Shown here piece by piece: positions 11,365 to 51,291 of a DNA stretch of 64,000 nucleotides (within the stretch, counting starts at the first letter, position 1; every line of letters begins with the position of its first letter). Under the pieces are notes generated by a model. The model did not search any database and had not been told where the DNA came from. It saw only the letters and a list, made by a program, of their open reading frames with translations. The position numbers and the translations under genes were made by a program. The stretch comes from Planctomycetota bacterium. Lineage in GTDB: Bacteria > Planctomycetota > UBA8742 > UBA2392. The stretch covers positions 138,997-202,996 of the forward strand of contig JADLFN010000046.1 of NCBI GenBank assembly GCA_020845475.1, given 5' to 3'.

Positions 11365-11457
11365 GGGAGCGGATGCATTCCTGGTGGATGCCCTGGTCTT
11401 CAAAACCATGGTGGGGCGCGAGTCCCAGGTCGGTTCGATTCCGATGCGCTCCCGCCA
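11365..11457 (+). tRNA. selC: tRNA-Sec (anticodon UCA)
   Basis: 93 nt including encoded CCA (11455-11457). The anticodon TCA is at 11400-11402 in loop CTTCAAA. It has the features that set tRNA-Sec apart: long acceptor (GGGAGCG pairs with CGCTCCC), a 6-bp D stem (GCATTC/GGATGC) with a short loop, a long variable arm (about TGGGGCGCGAGTCCCA), and T arm GTCGG-TTCGATT-CCGAT with discriminator G. The eighth acceptor pair would be G-G, a small departure from E. coli selC. It is charged with serine and converted by SelA, whose gene lies just upstream. Confidence 0.95.
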
Positions 11458-14309: not shown

Positions 14310-16520
14310 TCAGGTCGTTACGCGGCTGATTTTCAGCAGACGAGAGAGGCGGTCGATCACGACTGTAAGCGCGATGATGACAACCAGGTTCGTGGCCGCT
14401 TTGTGGTACTGGAAGTGCTCGAAATTGAAGGAAAACACAAAGCCGAGGCCCGCACTGCCGATGATGCCCAGCACCACACCCGCGCGCACGTTGCTCTCGA
14501 ACTGGAAGAACGAATATGTCATCCAGTCGCGCCAAGACAGCGGCACCGCGGCATAGCTGTAGGTCGCCAGCCTCGAACCGCCGAACGACTGTTCAAAGCG
14601 CCTGTATGGAATGTTGTCCACGGTTTCGCTGAATACGCGCGCCAGCAGCCCCAGCGTGTGCAGCGCCATGGCCGCCGCGCCAGCCACCACGCCCATGCCG
14701 AAAAACGCCACAAAGAACATCGCCCACATGACCTCGGGGATGCCGCGCGCCACAAGCGCAACAAAGCGCGAGAGTACGACAGAAAGCCAGCGCATGGCGC
14801 GCGCGATTAATGTGGGCGACTCGCCCGTGAAGTGCTGCGGCTCAATCTGGAAAGCCACCGAGTGCAGGAACGCCAGCCCCATGGCCAACAGCACGCCAAC
14901 AATCGTGCCAACCAGCGCCATGGCCACGGGGATGGTCGCACTCTTGAGGCTGATCGGCAGCGAGCCCTGCTCGATCTTGGTCGCGCGATAAAAGGGCGTC
15001 GTGTGCGCGAAATCGACGACGGTGTTGCGCCGTTTGCGATAGGGTGCCGTCTCAGGCCATTTGCGCGACTCGGCGTAAGAACCCCACTCAATCGCGCCGA
15101 TATCGGCCTCGCCTTTGGCAATCAGCAGAATCGTCTCCTTGTCACTGGAGGACACGATGACTTTGCTGAAAACCTCGTCGATGGGCTTGCCTGCGAGCTG
15201 TTCAAGGTAGCTGCGCGGCCCCTCGTGGGCGGGCTCGCGCCCGGCCGGCCCGAGCACCAGGCGCTTGCCGCGAATGCCCTCAAGGAACTTCGCGGCGTCC
15301 TCTTCGCGCGAGGGCCAGTCAGCGGCCTTGGCCATGAAATGAGTCTGCACCAGCGCGCCTTCGCGCTCGATGGTCCAGCCCAGTTCAGGCTCAAGCAGCT
15401 CTTTGAAATAGGCCATGTGCTGCCAGCCCTCGGGCTTGAACAGACCCGACAGGCGCTGCAGTTGCGGCTCGTTGACCGTCAGCGGGTGCGGCTGGAGCTG
15501 ATACCAGGCCGACCAGCCTACGAGCGCCAGCACGGTGCCCGCCGCGGCCCACTTGCCCGCAATCTGCGACGCGAGTGATTGGTTGCGAATCGCGCGCGGG
15601 TGATTGGGGTCCGTGCGCAGTTGCCGGCGGATGAAATTGGCCAGCAGGTCCACGGCCAGCGTGAGCGCAAGAGTGAAAATCACCATGGTAGCGACGCGGT
15701 CGTATTCGTCGTAGCCCAGGCGCAGCATGATTTCAGCGCCCACGCCGCCGCCGCCCACGGCGCCAATCACGGCCGCGTTGCGCACCGCGCATTCCGCGCG
15801 CATCAGCGTGTATGAAAGCATGCTGCGCGAAGCCAGCGGCCTGATGCCGTACATGAACGTGTGAATGCGCGAGCCGCCGGCGGCGCGGACGTTTTCGTAC
15901 TTCTGCGGGTCAATGCTGTCCCAGATCTCGCTGTAGATCTTGCCCAGGATGCCCGTGACCGAGATGGCCAGTGCGATCATGCCCGTCATGGGCCCAATGC
16001 CCAGCAGCGGCACGAGCATCACCGCCCACGCAAAATCCGGCACCGCGCGCAATACGTCGAGCACCAGGCGGCATACCGAGCACACCATTGCTGCCGGGCT
16101 GCGCAGCGGAAGCCAGCGCAGCCATGGGCCGGCGCGCTCTTCACCCACACACACCGAACGCGCGGCTCCCAGCGCCAAGAGGTAACCAAGCACGACGCCG
16201 ATGGCCGTGCCTAGAATTGCCGTTGATAACGTCTGCCAGACCAACTCCCAGGCGCGGGCAATGAACTCCGCGCTTGAATCAGGATTGCCAAAGGCGGCGA
16301 GGAACTGGCTCAAGCGCTCCATGCCGCGCTCGAATCTTGCGGGGTCCGTGAAGCTCGAGACATCCCAGACGCGGGAGTCGAAGGTCCAGAGGCTGCCCTC
16401 GTCCAGATCAACGGAGAAAAACGCGATGTAAAGCGAAAGCAGCACGCCAACCCACGCCAGGTAACTCCAAAGCGGGCGGCGCTGGGCGTATTTGGCGAGT
16501 TCAGGCGAAGGGCGGCTCAT
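14310..16520 (-). CDS. phnE: Phosphonate-type ABC permease, two fused PhnE-like modules with a periplasmic insert
   Basis: 736 residues. It joins two BPD-type permease domains. Module 1 spans residues about 85-315 (WQTLSTAILGTAIGVVLGY, conserved EAA-like loop AGGSRIHTFMYGI). Module 2 has its first membrane helix near 335 and its core at about 515-735 (EAA-like SFGGSRLATYSYAAVPL). In module 2 about 150 residues are inserted between the first and second helices. Part of the insert (IRGKRLVLGPAG, then KETILLIAKGEADIGAIEWGSY) resembles lobe 2 of phosphonate-binding proteins. ATG overlaps the phnC stop (ATGA). With phnC and phnD it forms an importer for phosphonate, phosphite or a similar anion. 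Confidence 0.82.
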   Translation of the reverse strand: MSRPSPELAKYAQRRPLWSYLAWVGVLLSLYIAFFSVDLDEGSLWTFDSRVWDVSSFTDPARFERGMERLSQFLAAFGNPDSSAEFIARAWELVWQTLSTAILGTAIGVVLGYLLALGAARSVCVGEERAGPWLRWLPLRSPAAMVCSVCRLVLDVLRAVPDFAWAVMLVPLLGIGPMTGMIALAISVTGILGKIYSEIWDSIDPQKYENVRAAGGSRIHTFMYGIRPLASRSMLSYTLMRAECAVRNAAVIGAVGGGGVGAEIMLRLGYDEYDRVATMVIFTLALTLAVDLLANFIRRQLRTDPNHPRAIRNQSLASQIAGKWAAAGTVLALVGWSAWYQLQPHPLTVNEPQLQRLSGLFKPEGWQHMAYFKELLEPELGWTIEREGALVQTHFMAKAADWPSREEDAAKFLEGIRGKRLVLGPAGREPAHEGPRSYLEQLAGKPIDEVFSKVIVSSSDKETILLIAKGEADIGAIEWGSYAESRKWPETAPYRKRRNTVVDFAHTTPFYRATKIEQGSLPISLKSATIPVAMALVGTIVGVLLAMGLAFLHSVAFQIEPQHFTGESPTLIARAMRWLSVVLSRFVALVARGIPEVMWAMFFVAFFGMGVVAGAAAMALHTLGLLARVFSETVDNIPYRRFEQSFGGSRLATYSYAAVPLSWRDWMTYSFFQFESNVRAGVVLGIIGSAGLGFVFSFNFEHFQYHKAATNLVVIIALTVVIDRLSRLLKISRVTT

Positions 16521-17359
16521 GGCGCCCCTTCCAGTTCAAGCTGATCGAGGTGTAATGCGCGGTACTCGGCGCCGTAAAGCTCCGCGAGCATCTGCCGACT
16601 CAGGCCTGCGGGCGGGCCGTCGTAGAACACGCGGCCCTCGCGCAGGGCGATCACGCGTTCGAAGTTGCCTTGCAACAGATCCAGCGTGTGCAAATTGACC
16701 AGCAACGTGGAGTGGCGCTGCCGCGCGAAACGCGTCAGCAGTTCAATCACTTCGCGGCCAAGGCGCAGATCAAGCTGGCTCACGGGCTCGTCGGCAAGCA
16801 CCACGCTCGGCTTCTGCACCAGCAGGCGGGCTATCGCCACGCGCTGCTGCTGTCCGCCCGAGAGTTCGCCGGGCATAGCCCAGAGCTTCTCTTCGATTTC
16901 AACCTCGCGCAAAGCCGCGCGCGCGCCTTCTAACTGCTGTGGCCAGAACAAACTGAGTAGCGCGCGGCCCAGCCACCAGTGGCCCAGCTTGCCCATCAGC
17001 ACATTGTGGACGACGCGCAGGCTGGGGATGAGATTGTCCGTCTGGTAAATCACGCCGATTTCGCGGCGCAACTCGCGCAGCCGCTTGCCGCGCAGGCCGC
17101 GCGTATCCTGACCGAGGCTGACAACAGTGCCGGATGTCGGCATCAAGAATGCCGAAAGCAGCCGGAACAGCGTTGTCTTGCCTGAGCCGGACGGCCCGAT
17201 CACCGCAACGTGCTCGCCACGCGCGATCTTGAGGTTGAGCCCCTTGAGCACCTCGTTGCGACCGTAGTTGAGCACGACATTTTCCAGAACAAAGGCCGGC
17301 TTGACCGGCTTTGCCGGCGGTGCCACGGCGCTAGAGATGTTCTCCGTCTGCGTCAGCAT
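16517..17359 (-). CDS. phnC: Phosphonate-type ABC transporter ATP-binding protein
   Basis: 280 residues. Walker A GPSGSGKTT (about residues 56-64), Q-loop in VIYQTDNLIPSLRVVHNVLMGKLG, signature LSGGQQQRVAIARLL, Walker B VVLADEP and switch-region His in LLVNLHTLDLL. The wording N-L-I--L-V--NVL-G-LG is typical of PhnC. It powers uptake through the fused permease encoded next (4-nt overlap). The first 25 residues (TENISSAVAPPAKPVKP) are a variable extension. A hairpin (17367-17393) separates it from the binding-protein gene upstream. Confidence 0.9.
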   Translation of the reverse strand: MLTQTENISSAVAPPAKPVKPAFVLENVVLNYGRNEVLKGLNLKIARGEHVAVIGPSGSGKTTLFRLLSAFLMPTSGTVVSLGQDTRGLRGKRLRELRREIGVIYQTDNLIPSLRVVHNVLMGKLGHWWLGRALLSLFWPQQLEGARAALREVEIEEKLWAMPGELSGGQQQRVAIARLLVQKPSVVLADEPVSQLDLRLGREVIELLTRFARQRHSTLLVNLHTLDLLQGNFERVIALREGRVFYDGPPAGLSRQMLAELYGAEYRALHLDQLELEGAP

Positions 17360-17366
17360 AGTTGTT

Positions 17367-17393
17367 GCGGGCGGGGCATCGCGCCCCGCCCGC
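17367..17393. repeat. 11-bp palindrome between phnD and phnC
   Basis: GCGGGCGGGGC (17367-17377) pairs with GCCCCGCCCGC (17383-17393) around ATCGC. Hairpins here often make the binding-protein message more abundant than the downstream genes; it may also be one of the palindromic repeats spread over the window. Confidence 0.65.
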
Positions 17394-17408
17394 TTGTCTT
17401 CCTACGGG

Positions 17409-18371
17409 TTAGCCAACGTCAACACCTGATTCCAACACCTTGCGGATGCCATCCCATTCCTTCTTTTCGCAGGCCACAAACTTGCTGCCCTTGGCGCCCC
17501 AGGCCGCGAGAATCTTGTTGTCGGCCTCCTTAGTGTGATCGAGCGCGAGGAACGCATCTTTGATCTTCTTGATGTTCTCCTCGCCAATGCCCGTGCGAGC
17601 GGCCCACACGTAGTCCACGTAGAAGGGCGTCGTATAAATCAATTCGCACTTCTCCTTGGCCTTCGCAAGCTCCTCCTTGGCGTTGTCCCAGTTCTTGAAG
17701 TTCAGCGCGCCCACCTGGGCCGTGCCTGCAGCTACGTTGCGCAGCGTGGCATCGTGGCTGCCGGAGTAGGCCACGTTGTCCTTGCCGAACACGTCTTCGG
17801 GCTTCTCGCCCGTCTGGTCCTGGAAGTAGTGGCGCGGCATGACGTGGCCCGAGGTGCTGCTCTTGGCGCCAAACGTGAACTTCATGCCTTCGGCCTTGGC
17901 GGCAAGGTCCTTGAGGTCCTTGACGGTGCCAATCTTGGCTTCTTTGTTAGCGATGAAATAGCTCTTGTATTGCTTGTCGGATTCGCGGCAGGCCACGAAC
18001 ACGCACTTGTCGCCCATTTTCTGGTCGGCCTGCACGCCCGTCACACCGCCAAACCACACCAGGTCAAGCTGGTCGGTTGCGAGACCCGTAACACACGCCG
18101 CATAGTTCTGTTGTGGCATGAACTTCACGGGAATACCCAACGCCTTGTTCAGCATCTCGCACACCAGGTTGCACTTCTCCTCGATGGCCTTGGCGTCGGA
18201 ATCCGGAATCGCGCTGATGCGCAGTTCTTTGATATCGCCATCGGCGATGGCCTGGTCGAGCGATTTTGTGCCGCGCCATTCTGATTTTCCGGCTGAAACC
18301 GGCAGACTGAAAACGACAAGCGCGGCTATCGCGCACAGCACTTTCATTGCGAGCAACGTACGGTTCAACAT
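17409..18371 (-). CDS. phnD: Phosphonate-type ABC transporter substrate-binding protein
   Basis: 320 residues from ATG 18371 (MKVLC at 18347 is an inner alternative). Signal peptide to about LPVSAGKS. It is a type II periplasmic binding fold of the PhnD family: LRISAIPDSDAKAIEE, LGIPVKFMPQQNYAACVTGLATDQLDLVWFGG, KSSTSGHVMPRHYF and VAYSGSHDATLRNVAAGTAQVGAL. In this family the SST-SG loop and GSHDA contact the phosphonate group. It is the first gene of a phnD-C-E cluster with no C-P lyase genes alongside, so the cluster is a stand-alone importer. Ligand (phosphonate, phosphite or phosphate) is not decided by the sequence. Confidence 0.88.
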   Translation of the reverse strand: MLNRTLLAMKVLCAIAALVVFSLPVSAGKSEWRGTKSLDQAIADGDIKELRISAIPDSDAKAIEEKCNLVCEMLNKALGIPVKFMPQQNYAACVTGLATDQLDLVWFGGVTGVQADQKMGDKCVFVACRESDKQYKSYFIANKEAKIGTVKDLKDLAAKAEGMKFTFGAKSSTSGHVMPRHYFQDQTGEKPEDVFGKDNVAYSGSHDATLRNVAAGTAQVGALNFKNWDNAKEELAKAKEKCELIYTTPFYVDYVWAARTGIGEENIKKIKDAFLALDHTKEADNKILAAWGAKGSKFVACEKKEWDGIRKVLESGVDVG

Positions 18372-18653
18372 GGATGGAATCCTGTTCAGTGCGGCCTGCA
18401 AAGCAGGAACGCGTTGGCCCCAGATTGAAAAAGAAATTGGCAGAGCGCGGAACTCGGGCTCATGCCGACCGGCATGGGTTACAGGACTCAGCCAAAGCCC
18501 GAAATCAGCGCGCGGCGCTGAAGGCTTTGAAGAACACACAGGTTGTTGAACCTGGCCATAGGTGCAGTTTATCGGCCGGCTTGCGGGCCGCAACGCTGAT
18601 TGCCGATAATTCATTCACTTTCGAACAAGTGACGGATTTGTGGCAGCGCCATG

Positions 18654-47025: not shown

Positions 47026-47577
47026 ATGACCTCTACTCAATACCGCGCCGAGCCGGCGCAACCCCAGCCTCAAGAGCAGACCCTGCCCTTTGATTCCGCC
47101 CAGGCTCAGCGCCGCCGTGAAATCGGCGTCGTGATCCAGCAATCCGCGCACGAGTATTACCGCCGGTTCGGCGGCGCCGAGATCGATAACGCCATTGCCC
47201 TGCTCAACGCCTTCGCGATCGATGGCGCGGCTTACGTCAAGAAAGTCATGAGCGATCAGGTCAGCGAAATCGACGCGCGCGCCCAGGAGCGCCAGCAGCC
47301 GCAGAAGCCCGAAGCCGAAAAGCTTCCCGAGGGCAGCGAAGCGCGCAAGCTGGTGAGCAAAGCCGCGCGCGCCAAACCGATCATCGACGCCGCCGCAGCC
47401 ACGCGCCTGAGCAAATTGTTGATGGAACTGGTCAACCTGCGGCGCACGGTTTACAAAACGGCGATCGAGAGCGTGACCGACCTGATGATGTATGCCAGCG
47501 ATGGCCAGGGATTCGACACGGCGCTTTCCGTGAACGAACTTGCGCGCCGCCTCAAAGCCGCGCTCGAAATGGTTTAG
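47026..47577 (+). CDS. Hypothetical cytoplasmic helical protein
   Basis: 183 residues from ATG 47026 (GTG 47014 possible). N-terminal Gln/Pro-rich tail (EPAQPQPQEQTLPFD), then helices: IGVVIQQSAHEYYRRFGGAEIDNAIALLNAFAIDG, and LSKLLMELVNLRRTVYKTAIESVTDLMMYASDGQG. No signal peptide, no membrane segment and no motif I recognise. Its stop overlaps the end of the convergent gene by 4 bp. Possibly a phage-terminase-small-subunit-like or structural protein, but the evidence is too thin to name. Confidence 0.6.
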   Translation: MTSTQYRAEPAQPQPQEQTLPFDSAQAQRRREIGVVIQQSAHEYYRRFGGAEIDNAIALLNAFAIDGAAYVKKVMSDQVSEIDARAQERQQPQKPEAEKLPEGSEARKLVSKAARAKPIIDAAAATRLSKLLMELVNLRRTVYKTAIESVTDLMMYASDGQGFDTALSVNELARRLKAALEMV

Positions 47578-48620
47578 CGCCCGACCTTGTTGAACCATTC
47601 CTCGAGCATTTTGCGCTCGCGGCTGGTGAGTTTCATGCGCGGGATGACGTCTTCGGCCTTTTCCTTCCAGTTGGGGCCGCTGCCTTCAACGCCCGGCTTG
47701 CGCTCGCCGTCGGGGTCGTACACGTGCTTGCTGGTTTCGCGGCTGCGGCGCTCGCCTTCGCCGGCTTCGGGCGTGATCGGGCGCTCGGCGGACTCCGGCG
47801 TTTTCTCGGGCTGCTCAGCTTCCGGCGGCTTGGGACCCTTGTTGTCGCCGATGCCGCGCTCTTTGCTGCTGCCTTCGGCGGGCGTGGGTTTGACGTCGCT
47901 GGGCGGCGCTTCGCCGGGTTTGTCGGAGGCGCGGCCCGAGGGCGCGGGCTGCGAGGCCCTGGTCTCACCGGGGTCGGCGGTGGCGCTTTCTCCGCCGTTG
48001 CCCTGGCTGCCGCTCTTTTTGGCCTTGCCGCCGCCGGCATCGCCTTTAGCGGGGGCGCCGGATGGCTGCACATCACGCCGCTGAGCGTTCTCGGGTGCGA
48101 CATTCGCAACCGCGTCGTCCTGCGGCGCGCGCGGCTGCGGCGACCAAAGCGCCAGCGGCATGAGCGCAAGCAGCAGGGCGATGACGAGCGCGCCCCAGTG
48201 CTTGCGGGGTGCGGCTTTGCGCGCCTTCGCTTCATCAAAGCCGCTCGCCACGCGGGCTTGCACGGCTTTGGCAAAGGGGCCGGCGCCGTCGAGCAACGTG
48301 ACGAGCGCGTCGTTGAGGCCAAGTTCGCGGTCGAGTTGCAGCGACCAGTCCGGCGCGCCAACACGGCGCGGGCGCGCAAAGGCTTGACGTGTCAAGAGCA
48401 GCGCCGCCGCCACGCCGCAAAGGCCCAGCGCGCTGAGCACGGCCAGCAGCACAAAGTCGCGCCAGCCGGCCAGCGCAAAGGCCAGCGCGGCGCCGAGCAC
48501 GGCCAGCGCCGGCAGCGCCGCCCAGCGCGAGCCGGCATTGATCATGGCCGCGTTGAGCCAGCGCTTGCGCGCGCGTTCAAGGGCGGGCTGAAGTGACAGT
48601 TTTTCGGCACTCTGGGTCAT
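47574..48620 (-). CDS. Membrane protein with long disordered charged region
   Basis: 348 residues. Two membrane helices near the N-terminus (WAALPALAVLGAALAFALAGWRDFVLLAVLSALGLCGVAAALLLT) and one at about 147-165 (WGALVIALLLALMPLALW). Then about 140 residues of Pro/Glu/Lys/Gly-rich low complexity and a short conserved-looking end (DVIPRMKLTSRERKMLEEWFNKVGR). The first third (LDRELGLNDALVTLLDG) recalls DUF4175-like proteins seen beside MoxR/VWA clusters; a MoxR gene is 1.2 kb away. Function unknown. Confidence 0.6.
   Translation of the reverse strand: MTQSAEKLSLQPALERARKRWLNAAMINAGSRWAALPALAVLGAALAFALAGWRDFVLLAVLSALGLCGVAAALLLTRQAFARPRRVGAPDWSLQLDRELGLNDALVTLLDGAGPFAKAVQARVASGFDEAKARKAAPRKHWGALVIALLLALMPLALWSPQPRAPQDDAVANVAPENAQRRDVQPSGAPAKGDAGGGKAKKSGSQGNGGESATADPGETRASQPAPSGRASDKPGEAPPSDVKPTPAEGSSKERGIGDNKGPKPPEAEQPEKTPESAERPITPEAGEGERRSRETSKHVYDPDGERKPGVEGSGPNWKEKAEDVIPRMKLTSRERKMLEEWFNKVGR
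48384..48395. repeat. TTGACNNGTCAA palindrome inside the disordered membrane protein gene
   Basis: TTGACGTGTCAA, extended to CTTGACGTGTCAAG (48383-48396). Confidence 0.65.
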
Positions 48621-48696: not shown

Positions 48697-48720
48697 AACC
48701 CGCCTCACACGGAGACCGCC

Positions 48721-49749
48721 ATGCTCAAGTATGCCGCCCTGTTGCTGCTCCTGGCCGCGCCGCTTTGCGCGCAGGACCAAAAGCCCCTGCGCACGGGCGA
48801 TGTCGCGCCGGAACTTCGCATCACGTATTGGCTGGAAACGCCCGAGAAAACCACGCTGGCGGAAATGGCCGGCGACGTGGTCTTCATCAAGGCCTGGGGC
48901 ATGGGGTGAGGCCCGAGCATGGGGCAGTTGCCCCACATGAACGAGCTCTATGAGAAGTATTCGGCCAAGGGTTTGCACATCATCGGCCTGTACTCGCAGG
49001 GCGAGGCCATTGACGAAATTGCCAAGGTGGTGAAGGAAAAGAACATCAAGTATCCGCAGGCGCTTTCCTGGCTCGATGAAGACAATGCCTGGGACAACTC
49101 CTCGGTGCCGCGCGTGTGGATCGTGGGCGTGGACGGCAAGATCAAGTTTTCCGGCGTCAAGGGCTACGAGAAGATCCTTGAGTCGGAACTTGCCAAGGTG
49201 AAGCACCCCGGCCTGGGCGACATTGAAGTTGCGGCCGAACTCAAGGAAGCCGCGGCCGCCTTTGGCGCGCGCGAATACGGCAAGGCTTGGAAGCTGGCCG
49301 ACGCCGTGGCATCCAACAGCGAGGCCAGCGACGCCGCCCAGGACTCCGCCGCCAAGATCAAGGCCTGCGTGGACGAGCGCTTCCGCGTGCTGCGCAACAA
49401 AGCCGAAGTAGCCGAAGTCGAGAACGACTGGCGCCTCGTCGTCACCACCTGGCGGGCTATCGCCGAGCGCTTCACGGGCTACGAAGACGCGGCTGAAGCC
49501 CTGGAGAAGTGCGAGAAGCTGAAAGCGGACAAGAAGGTGCAGTTGGAGCTGGAAGCGGCCACGGCGATTCGCGTGATCGACCGCGAATTGAATGACAAGG
49601 GCGCAGGCCTTGAGGAGTGGATCAAGCGCTACAAGGAGTTCGCCACGAAGTACAAAGAGACGAGCTGGAACGAAAAGGTCAACGCGGCCATCGAGCGCAT
49701 GCAGCAGGAGTTGAAGGACGCCGAAGAAGCCGGCAAAGGCGGCAAGTAA
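48721..49749 (+). CDS. TlpA/AhpC-type thioredoxin selenoprotein with UGPS active site
   Basis: 342 residues with UGA 48907-48909 read as Sec (U63). ATG 48721 follows GGAG. Signal peptide MLKYAALLLLLAAPLCAQ. Residues about 20-165 are a TlpA/ResA-like thioredoxin domain: LRTGDVAPELRITYWLE, VVFIKAWGMG-U-GPS, MNELYEKYSAKGLHIIGLY, VPRVWIVGVDGKIKFSG with cis-Pro context. The site normally WCGPC is G-U-G-P-S: Sec for the first Cys, Ser for the second. After it come about 175 helical residues. Only one Cys remains, far away (KACVDERF). It probably works as a periplasmic selenol peroxidase or reductase. The frame is unbroken on both sides of the UGA. Confidence 0.93.
48920..48935 (+). promoter_or_regulatory. 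SECIS-like hairpin of the thioredoxin selenoprotein
   Basis: TGGGGC (48920-48925) pairs with GCCCCA (48930-48935) around AGTT. The loop starts 16 nt after UGA and has G at its second position. Confidence 0.72.
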
Positions 49750-49797: not shown

Positions 49798-51291
49798 CTA
49801 CCCCTCATACAGCGCGCCCAGCATGTCGCAGTAAAGGATGCCGCGGTCGAGGTCTTCTTTGGCGAGCAGGCTGGACTGGTGCAGTCCCTCGAGCACGAAC
49901 TCCATGGCGACGGCCAACTCATCGCCGCGCGTTTCCTTCAAGTGCGACTGCGCCAGTTCGCGCAGGCCGGGCACGGATTCAAGGCGGGCCGCGAAGTCCC
50001 TGTCGCTGAGATCGTCCGTGAGTTCGAGTTTGCGGCCCACGGCGAAGTAGTCGATGATCGGCTTGTAGGCGCCATCGCCCTTGGCGGCCGGTTTCTCGGC
50101 CTTCTGCGGCCGCTTTTGCGCGGGGTTCTTACCGCCAGCGTAAACGCCCGGGAACAGGCGTTCGAAGGTCTTGCGCACGGCGCTGCCCACCAGGTTCGTG
50201 CTGACCTTTTGCAGGCCTTCCTGCTCGCCTTCGTACACCAGTTCCAGCTTGCCGCTCATCGAGGGCACGGCGCTCTGCAAGTCGAGCACTCTCGCCGTGG
50301 TGTGCTCTTGACCTGTCAAGAGACAGCGCCGCTCGGCGTTGCTGATCACGTTCTCATAGATCGCAATCGTCATGCGCGCCGAAACGCCCGAGCCCTGGTC
50401 CACGAACTCGCTCTTGCGCGCCTCGAAGGCAATCTGCTCGATCGCGTCGCGGATGAACTGCGGTATGGCCACCTTCGGCCCGCCGCGTTTAGTCCAGCTT
50501 TCCTGATCCGTGATCGCCTTCGCGTCATCCAGCGAGATCGGGTAATGCGTCAACACCTGGCTCTCGATGCGGTCTTTCAGCGGCGTGATGATCGAGCCAC
50601 GATTCGTGTAATCCTCCGGGTTGGCGCTGAAGCACAGCATGATGTCGAGCGGAATGCGCACCGGAAAGCCGCGGATCTGGATGTCCTTCTCTTCAAGTAT
50701 GTTCAAAAGGCCCACCTGGATGCGCGGCTGCAAATCGGGCAGCTCATTGATCGCAAAGATGCCCCGGTTCGTGCGCGGGATGATGCCGAAGTGGATGACT
50801 TCTTCGTCGGCAAACGTCAGCTTGCGCGAGGCCGCCTTGATCGGGTCCACGTCGCCGATCAGGTCGGCAATGCTCACGTCGGGCGTGGCCAGCTTTTCGT
50901 TGTAGCGCGCATCGCGGGCAAGCCACTCAATGGGCGTGGCATCGCCCTTGCTTACGACCAACGCGCGCGCGTGCTTCGAGATCGGCGCAAAGGGGTCATC
51001 GTTGATTTCGCTGCCCGCCACCACGGGAATGAACTCATCGAGCAGCCCCACCATCGCGCGCAGGATGCGCGTCTTGGCCTGGCCGCGCAAGCCCAGCAGG
51101 ATGATGTTGTGCCGCGACAAAATGGCGTTGATCACCTGCGGCAGCACCGTGGCGTCATAGCCCACAATGCCCTCGAACACGGGCTGCTTGGCGCGTAGCC
51201 GCGCCATGAGATTGTCGCGCAGCTCATCCTTCACCAGACGCGGCTTGTAGCCGGCCTTGCGCAGTTCACCAAGCGTGGAGGGTCGTGCCAT
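49798..51291 (-). CDS. MoxR/Mg-chelatase-type AAA+ ATPase
   Basis: 497 residues. Walker A GLRGQAKT in LLGLRGQAKTRILRAM (about 66-73), Walker B region GIFAINELPDLQPRIQVGLLNILEEKDIQIRG, sensor FSANPEDYTNRGSIITPLKDRIES. This is the MoxR/ChlI clade, longer than usual, with a C-terminal helical region (DLSDRDFAARLESVPGLRELAQSHLKETRGDEL). Such ATPases act as chaperones, often with VWA-domain partners to insert metals or mature complexes. No VWA gene is adjacent in the window; a molybdenum hydroxylase operon lies 150 bp away, divergent, whose maturation is a possible job. Confidence 0.85.
   Translation of the reverse strand: MARPSTLGELRKAGYKPRLVKDELRDNLMARLRAKQPVFEGIVGYDATVLPQVINAILSRHNIILLGLRGQAKTRILRAMVGLLDEFIPVVAGSEINDDPFAPISKHARALVVSKGDATPIEWLARDARYNEKLATPDVSIADLIGDVDPIKAASRKLTFADEEVIHFGIIPRTNRGIFAINELPDLQPRIQVGLLNILEEKDIQIRGFPVRIPLDIMLCFSANPEDYTNRGSIITPLKDRIESQVLTHYPISLDDAKAITDQESWTKRGGPKVAIPQFIRDAIEQIAFEARKSEFVDQGSGVSARMTIAIYENVISNAERRCLLTGQEHTTARVLDLQSAVPSMSGKLELVYEGEQEGLQKVSTNLVGSAVRKTFERLFPGVYAGGKNPAQKRPQKAEKPAAKGDGAYKPIIDYFAVGRKLELTDDLSDRDFAARLESVPGLRELAQSHLKETRGDELAVAMEFVLEGLHQSSLLAKEDLDRGILYCDMLGALYEG
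50305..50322. repeat. CTCTTGACNNGTCAAGAG palindrome inside the MoxR gene
   Basis: CTCTTGACCTGTCAAGAG, a full 18-bp copy. It encodes part of LLTGQEHT. Confidence 0.8.

Follow-up and report, generated by a model that had tools for sequence, protein, structure and literature searches.

A derived UGPS active site in a predicted TlpA/ResA-like selenoprotein of a Planctomycetota bacterium

How is a UGA codon read when it falls in the active site of a thioredoxin-like protein, and what could a selenol do there once the resolving cysteine has been replaced? Both questions are raised by a gene in the window (the whole stretch of DNA analyzed, 64,000 nucleotides of contig JADLFN010000046.1 from a Planctomycetota bacterium). 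Frame translation of positions 48721-49749 on the + strand gives a reading frame from ATG to TAA with a single in-frame TGA, at residue 63, behind which the frame runs uninterrupted for 279 codons. The active-site stretch reads KAWGMG-U-GPSMGQLPHMNEL, in agreement with the original prediction of a WGMG-UGA-GPS motif lying in one frame across the UGA. The gene stands alone on its own strand, between a divergent gene without a Pfam match (47574-48620) and a convergent AAA ATPase gene (49798-51291).

48721..49749, + strand: selenoprotein coding sequence, 342 amino acids including Sec63, composed of a TlpA/ResA-like domain and a helical half (frame translation, Pfam, AlphaFold2)
48711..48714, + strand: GGAG, 6 nt 5' of the ATG, likely the ribosome binding site (read from the sequence)
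48907..48909, + strand: in-frame UGA, read as Sec63 (frame and homolog alignment)
48916..48918, + strand: AGC, encoding Ser66 at the site of the resolving Cys; the relatives L009, L010 and L011 have TGC

The UGA at 48907 very probably encodes selenocysteine (Sec). Homologs with Cys or Asp read straight through the same point, which bears out that both flanks of the codon are coding, and the residue found at this site in the collected homologs is Sec, Cys, or one of Asp, Ser and Asn. A stop at this position followed by a separate downstream reading frame, named beforehand as the pattern that would speak against a selenoprotein, occurs in none of them. Moreover, the genome contains the full set of genes for Sec synthesis and insertion: selA and tRNA-Sec lie in the window, and outside it selB (contig G000:C56) scores above its curated cut-off, as does selD (contig C58).

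9237..10637, + strand: selA, L-seryl-tRNA(Sec) selenium transferase (TIGR00474, 535.6 bits, cut-off 267.9)
11365..11453, + strand: tRNA-Sec with UCA anticodon (ARAGORN; Rfam RF01852, 73.5 bits)

The selD gene (L211) has an in-frame TGA of its own, its product being itself a selenoprotein (GAG-U-GCK). Close to selA and tRNA-Sec there is also an ABC transporter of the phosphonate/selenate type (14310-18614, - strand), whose binding protein, with 244.2 bits, stays below the cut-off (250) of TIGR04553, a family of putative selenate-binding proteins; the transporter could be a selenium uptake system.

Sec insertion at this codon is also supported by a hairpin directly behind it.

48920..48935, + strand: SECIS-like hairpin following the UGA at 10 nt, UGGGGC-AGUU-GCCCCA (compensatory changes; fold z -2.0)

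The hairpin has a stem of six base pairs and an AGUU loop. Across 28 distinct family sequences of the same loop type the pairing holds in 97% of cells, with 21 two-sided stem changes compared to 4.5 in shuffled controls, and no slid version of the stem comes close. The mean stem score is 15.9 in Sec members, 9.8 in Cys members and 10.3 in Asp members, such that the structure is strong in TGA members only. By itself the window RNA folds modestly better than its shuffles (z -2.0). Both arms differ from those of the orthologs, insofar as CGG (Arg) has become GGG (Gly68) and the facing Pro codon CCG has become CCC; since these two changes match, the hairpin is still paired while the active-site loop has changed. 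The features by which a bacterial selenoprotein is recognized are thus found together at this locus, namely a UGA where homologs have Cys, a hairpin conserved in structure, and selA, selB, selD and tRNA-Sec in the genome.

The encoded protein consists of a putative signal peptide and two domains.

48721..48771, + strand: N-terminus resembling a signal peptide (residues 1-17, Cys16 among them) with a putative cleavage site behind LCA (sequence read)
48793..49200, + strand: thioredoxin-fold (ResA/TlpA-like) domain, residues 25-160 (Pfam, AlphaFold2, Foldseek, VIA)
49225..49686, + strand: C-terminal helical half with TPR-like hairpins; the match to the C-terminal half of NF041382 spans residues 169-322
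49366..49368, + strand: Cys216, specific to the window gene; Arg in 12/12 orthologs
49510..49512, + strand: Cys264, specific to the window gene; Leu in 12/12 orthologs

The hydrophobic N-terminus, MLKYAALLLLLAAPLCAQ, resembles a signal peptide, and within the orthogroup A17 is invariant and Q18 nearly so; the protein may be exported or membrane-anchored. Residues 25-148 match Pfam Redoxin (PF08534; Redoxin/AhpC-TSA) with an E-value of 2.1e-9 and 37.7 bits (cut-off 26.6), and an AlphaFold2 model built with 52 family sequences has a pLDDT of 92.9. The first domain of the model resembles ResA/TlpA/DsbE structures (Foldseek to 4nmu, E 5.6e-10; VIA Z 17.5 over 131-136 residues), as it does in a profile search of solved structures (6.7e-32). 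Pro130, by analogy the likely cis-Pro, is present here and in 46/52 members. The analysis upholds the proposed TlpA/ResA-type selenoprotein and the serine at the position of the resolving Cys. The fold is that of the TlpA/ResA family, and because the active site is UGPS, with neither a CxxC nor a UxxC pair, we treat the protein as a homolog of that family and do not file it as a dithiol oxidoreductase.

The helical half, modeled alone, gives eight helices with a pLDDT of 95.2. A search for solved structures with a confident match to it found none (the top Foldseek match has E 0.34, the top VIA match Z 7.8 and an rmsd of 9.5), and the predicted helical hairpins together with weak TPR matches point weakly to a TPR-like module. 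It had been described as lacking a clear relative, which proved wrong: it occurs throughout the paralog family and in the C-terminal half of NF041382, which matches the window protein at 1e-9 and a paralog at 7.8e-18. This match makes the helical module common to two selenoprotein families. Likewise, the statement that no other Cys is near the active site is true locally, but it overlooked Cys216 and Cys264, both in the helical half, which are the two cysteines of the mature protein.

Comparison with known systems places UGPS as a new variant within the catalogued TlpA/Redoxin-type UxxC selenoproteins. Table 1 of PMC13188914 lists UxxC selenoproteins of the thiol-disulfide isomerase-like (cd02966) and Redoxin (PF08534) families, which share with the window protein the TlpA/Redoxin-type thioredoxin fold and an attacking Sec; the window protein differs in its UGPS motif and its TPR-like helical half. 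In the same table UxxS appears under peroxiredoxin-like, rhodanese and arsenate reductase proteins and not in the TlpA/Redoxin rows. The peroxiredoxin-like UxxS proteins (cd02970), compared by description, are thioredoxin-fold selenoproteins with Ser at +3 as well, but belong to a different branch of the fold class. ResA, TlpA and DsbE (PDB 4nmu, 1st9) are alike in fold and in the signal-peptide-like N-terminus (52 bits to the NCBIfam ResA model), whereas the window protein lacks their CxxC dithiol, has Sec for the first Cys and carries an additional C-terminal half of ~175 amino acids. NF041382, the VPGUxxT family thioredoxin-like (seleno)protein type 1, corresponds to the window family in its C-terminal half only (profile ~173-349); neither its N-terminal domain nor its VPGUxxT motif finds a match, and the window protein, at 38.2 bits against a cut-off of 350, is not a member. 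Glutathione peroxidases (PF00255, UxxT) similarly hold a Sec without a second Cys at the same place of the thioredoxin fold, but the match is weak (residues 42-90, 19.4 bits versus a cut-off of 27) and does not amount to membership.

The homologs show how the serine came about. Our collection of unique members, drawn from this genome and other Planctomycetota genomes, comprised 119 at first and 180 in the end, and we define it here as a Planctomycetota TlpA-helical selenoprotein family; the window protein fits it in that both halves are homologous and Sec or Cys falls in one column. Before removal of duplicates, 184 TGA hits fell on HMM column 62 with one stray, a clustering well beyond chance. 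The 180 members divide into 127 with TGA, 32 with CxxC and 3 with CxxS, the remainder having Asp, Ser or Asn. Three TAG-bearing matches (G001:C14, G002:C15, G003:C22) were considered as UAG-Sec and rejected, the Sec column being Asp or Asn (GAT/AAC) and the TAG lying elsewhere. The most divergent Sec motifs are those of L203 and L204 (NFIGIH-U-GRC and VFMGVG-U-GRC).

The resolving Cys is kept (UxxC) in 126/127 Sec members, the window gene being the sole exception. Further UxxS members were sought among the 180 Planctomycetota homologs and none was found, and a general UxxS subfamily is accordingly rejected. In the tree the window gene groups with two same-genus UGPC orthologs (SH-aLRT 99), with conserved neighbors, and from this nested position it follows that UGPS is derived. 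What had been put forward as the mark of a new type is hence one lineage-specific change. The window gene alone breaks five columns that are otherwise invariant in its orthogroup of 13 (C66S, R68G, L129V, R216C, L264C), and three of its changes fall in the active-site loop (N62G, C66S, R68G). Gly62 before the nucleophile is unusual, as originally noted; the missing Trp is not, since N, T, R, W or D is usual at this place in the family.

Other members have taken different courses. Eighteen paralogs in three places of the tree are without Sec or Cys at the active-site position, one of them (L005, G000:C85) in this genome; L005 and the 16-member Asp clade of the tree make up a conserved group of thioredoxin-fold paralogs (DGTA, DIGS and similar) that is kept across the genome family. 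Tandem trios occur in other genomes of the same family (L050, L052, L055, L057, L059, L061, L062), in which a Sec copy, mostly UGPC, stands beside a CGPC copy and an Asp copy lacking Cys, which suggests a division of labor that includes a redox-dead member. In genus g2, tandem copies of the ortholog read CTTS or CTGS (L020 2589-3623, L021 321-1364, L022 2594-3649); here Cys stands at the Sec position and Ser at that of the resolving Cys, which was thus lost independently in this genus.

In TlpA and thioredoxin proteins the first active-site residue attacks a disulfide and the Cys at +3 releases the adduct. By extension, Sec would attack and the +3 Cys release in the UxxC relatives. Our preferred reading, to which we give a probability of roughly 0.6, is that the window gene encodes an exported TlpA/ResA-like selenoprotein with a TPR-like half, whose one-selenol adduct is released by a thiol in trans or by a Cys that was gained. 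SelB would decode the UGA at 48907 as Sec with the aid of the hairpin at 48920-48935; with the resolving Cys changed to Ser in this lineage, Sec63 would lack its usual intramolecular Sec-Cys bond and would most likely attack a substrate disulfide or an oxidized thiol. A second thiol would then release Sec63, and may come from a periplasmic dithiol donor such as a DsbD-like protein (the genome encodes a DsbD-type membrane protein), from a UxxC or CxxC paralog, or from Cys216/Cys264. Computation shows Sec coding and the hairpin, places the protein in the family and marks the loss of Cys66 as derived; we infer its export, the chemistry of a single selenol and which thiol resolves it. The one-selenol mechanism of the original prediction is possible and no more, because the helical half has a pair of cysteines and relaxed selection is measurable.

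The main rival is functional decay, or a shift away from redox catalysis, with Sec still inserted and UGPS a transitional state on the way to what is seen in the Asp/Ser/Asn paralogs. The 18 paralogs already without Sec or Cys, L005 among them, fit this, as do the three loop changes and the CTGS/CTTS copies of g2. The dN/dS of the window gene against its same-genus ortholog is 0.42, the highest of seven same-genus pairs (0.10-0.29 in five other Sec paralog pairs, 0.37 in a redox-dead pair), the ratios being rough with dS at 0.93-1.5; it stays below 1 on either side of the UGA (0.39 before, 0.42 after). The raised ratio speaks for decay; relaxed constraint would account for it, and so would a change of function. 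The stem pairing preserved by compensatory change speaks against simple decay; moreover, the frame has stayed open past the UGA, and Sec is retained even though a sense codon is one step away. Since UGPS occurs in the window gene alone, there is no second lineage showing that the motif is maintained. On this evidence decay is possible, if somewhat unlikely.

A more specific proposal is that the catalytic partner has moved, Sec63 being resolved by Cys216/Cys264 in a two-domain Sec-Cys relay that evolved inside a single genus, its ancestor being a UxxC enzyme. It is suggested by new cysteines in columns that are invariantly Arg and Leu in the 12 orthologs, appearing together with the loss of Cys66; this gain was noticed post hoc, and other orthologs have Cys elsewhere in the helical half. 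We regard the relay as doubtful. It is likewise improbable that the natural motif is UGPC and that Ser66 stems from faulty sequencing or assembly or represents a rare variant among strains. A single base (AGC versus TGC) sets the window gene apart from all near relatives, the metagenome bin that it comes from is only 76.8% complete, and a second genome of the species was not found. Nevertheless, a random hit at exactly this codon is improbable, and adjacent residues have changed as well, one with compensation in the hairpin, which argues that the whole loop evolved.

That the UGA at 48907 is a true stop, with a restart at ATG 48919 and two products, is very improbable and was rejected. GGGGTGAGG lies directly 5' of this ATG in the window gene and would suit a restart, but the split would cut the thioredoxin fold at the catalytic helix, the Met of the ATG is V, L, I or another residue in many relatives, Cys homologs are continuous here, and the hairpin is strong only where there is a TGA. 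Genome-wide reassignment of UGA to a standard amino acid, to which several genes with in-frame TGA might point, is likewise dismissed, since TGA is the ordinary stop of 7/14 window genes examined, the family TGAs sit at the catalytic position only, and tRNA-Sec, selA, selB and selD are all there.

The family is widespread in the phylum. Named homologs from a search with the orthogroup alignment are all Planctomycetota metagenome bins, and the family profile at E 1e-25 matches 249/392 Planctomycetota genomes, some in the thioredoxin domain only. About seven Sec copies were collected in this genome (~77% complete), and 16 genomes of its family have a mean of 4.4 (range 2 to 7) as collected, which is not exhaustive. 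A 2016 survey (PMC5029168) named Deltaproteobacteria, Clostridia and Synergistetes as selenoprotein-rich, and the text of a 2026 review (PMC13188914) does not mention Planctomycetes; a literature search on Planctomycetota and selenocysteine found only general or red-alga-associated genomes.

Our results point to a large, paralog-rich family of thioredoxin-like selenoproteins in the phylum Planctomycetota, whose genes would be split at the UGA by ordinary gene calling. Within it, the UGPC relatives of the same genus and the UGPS gene form a natural matched pair for the role of a selenol in a TlpA-type fold without a resolving Cys.
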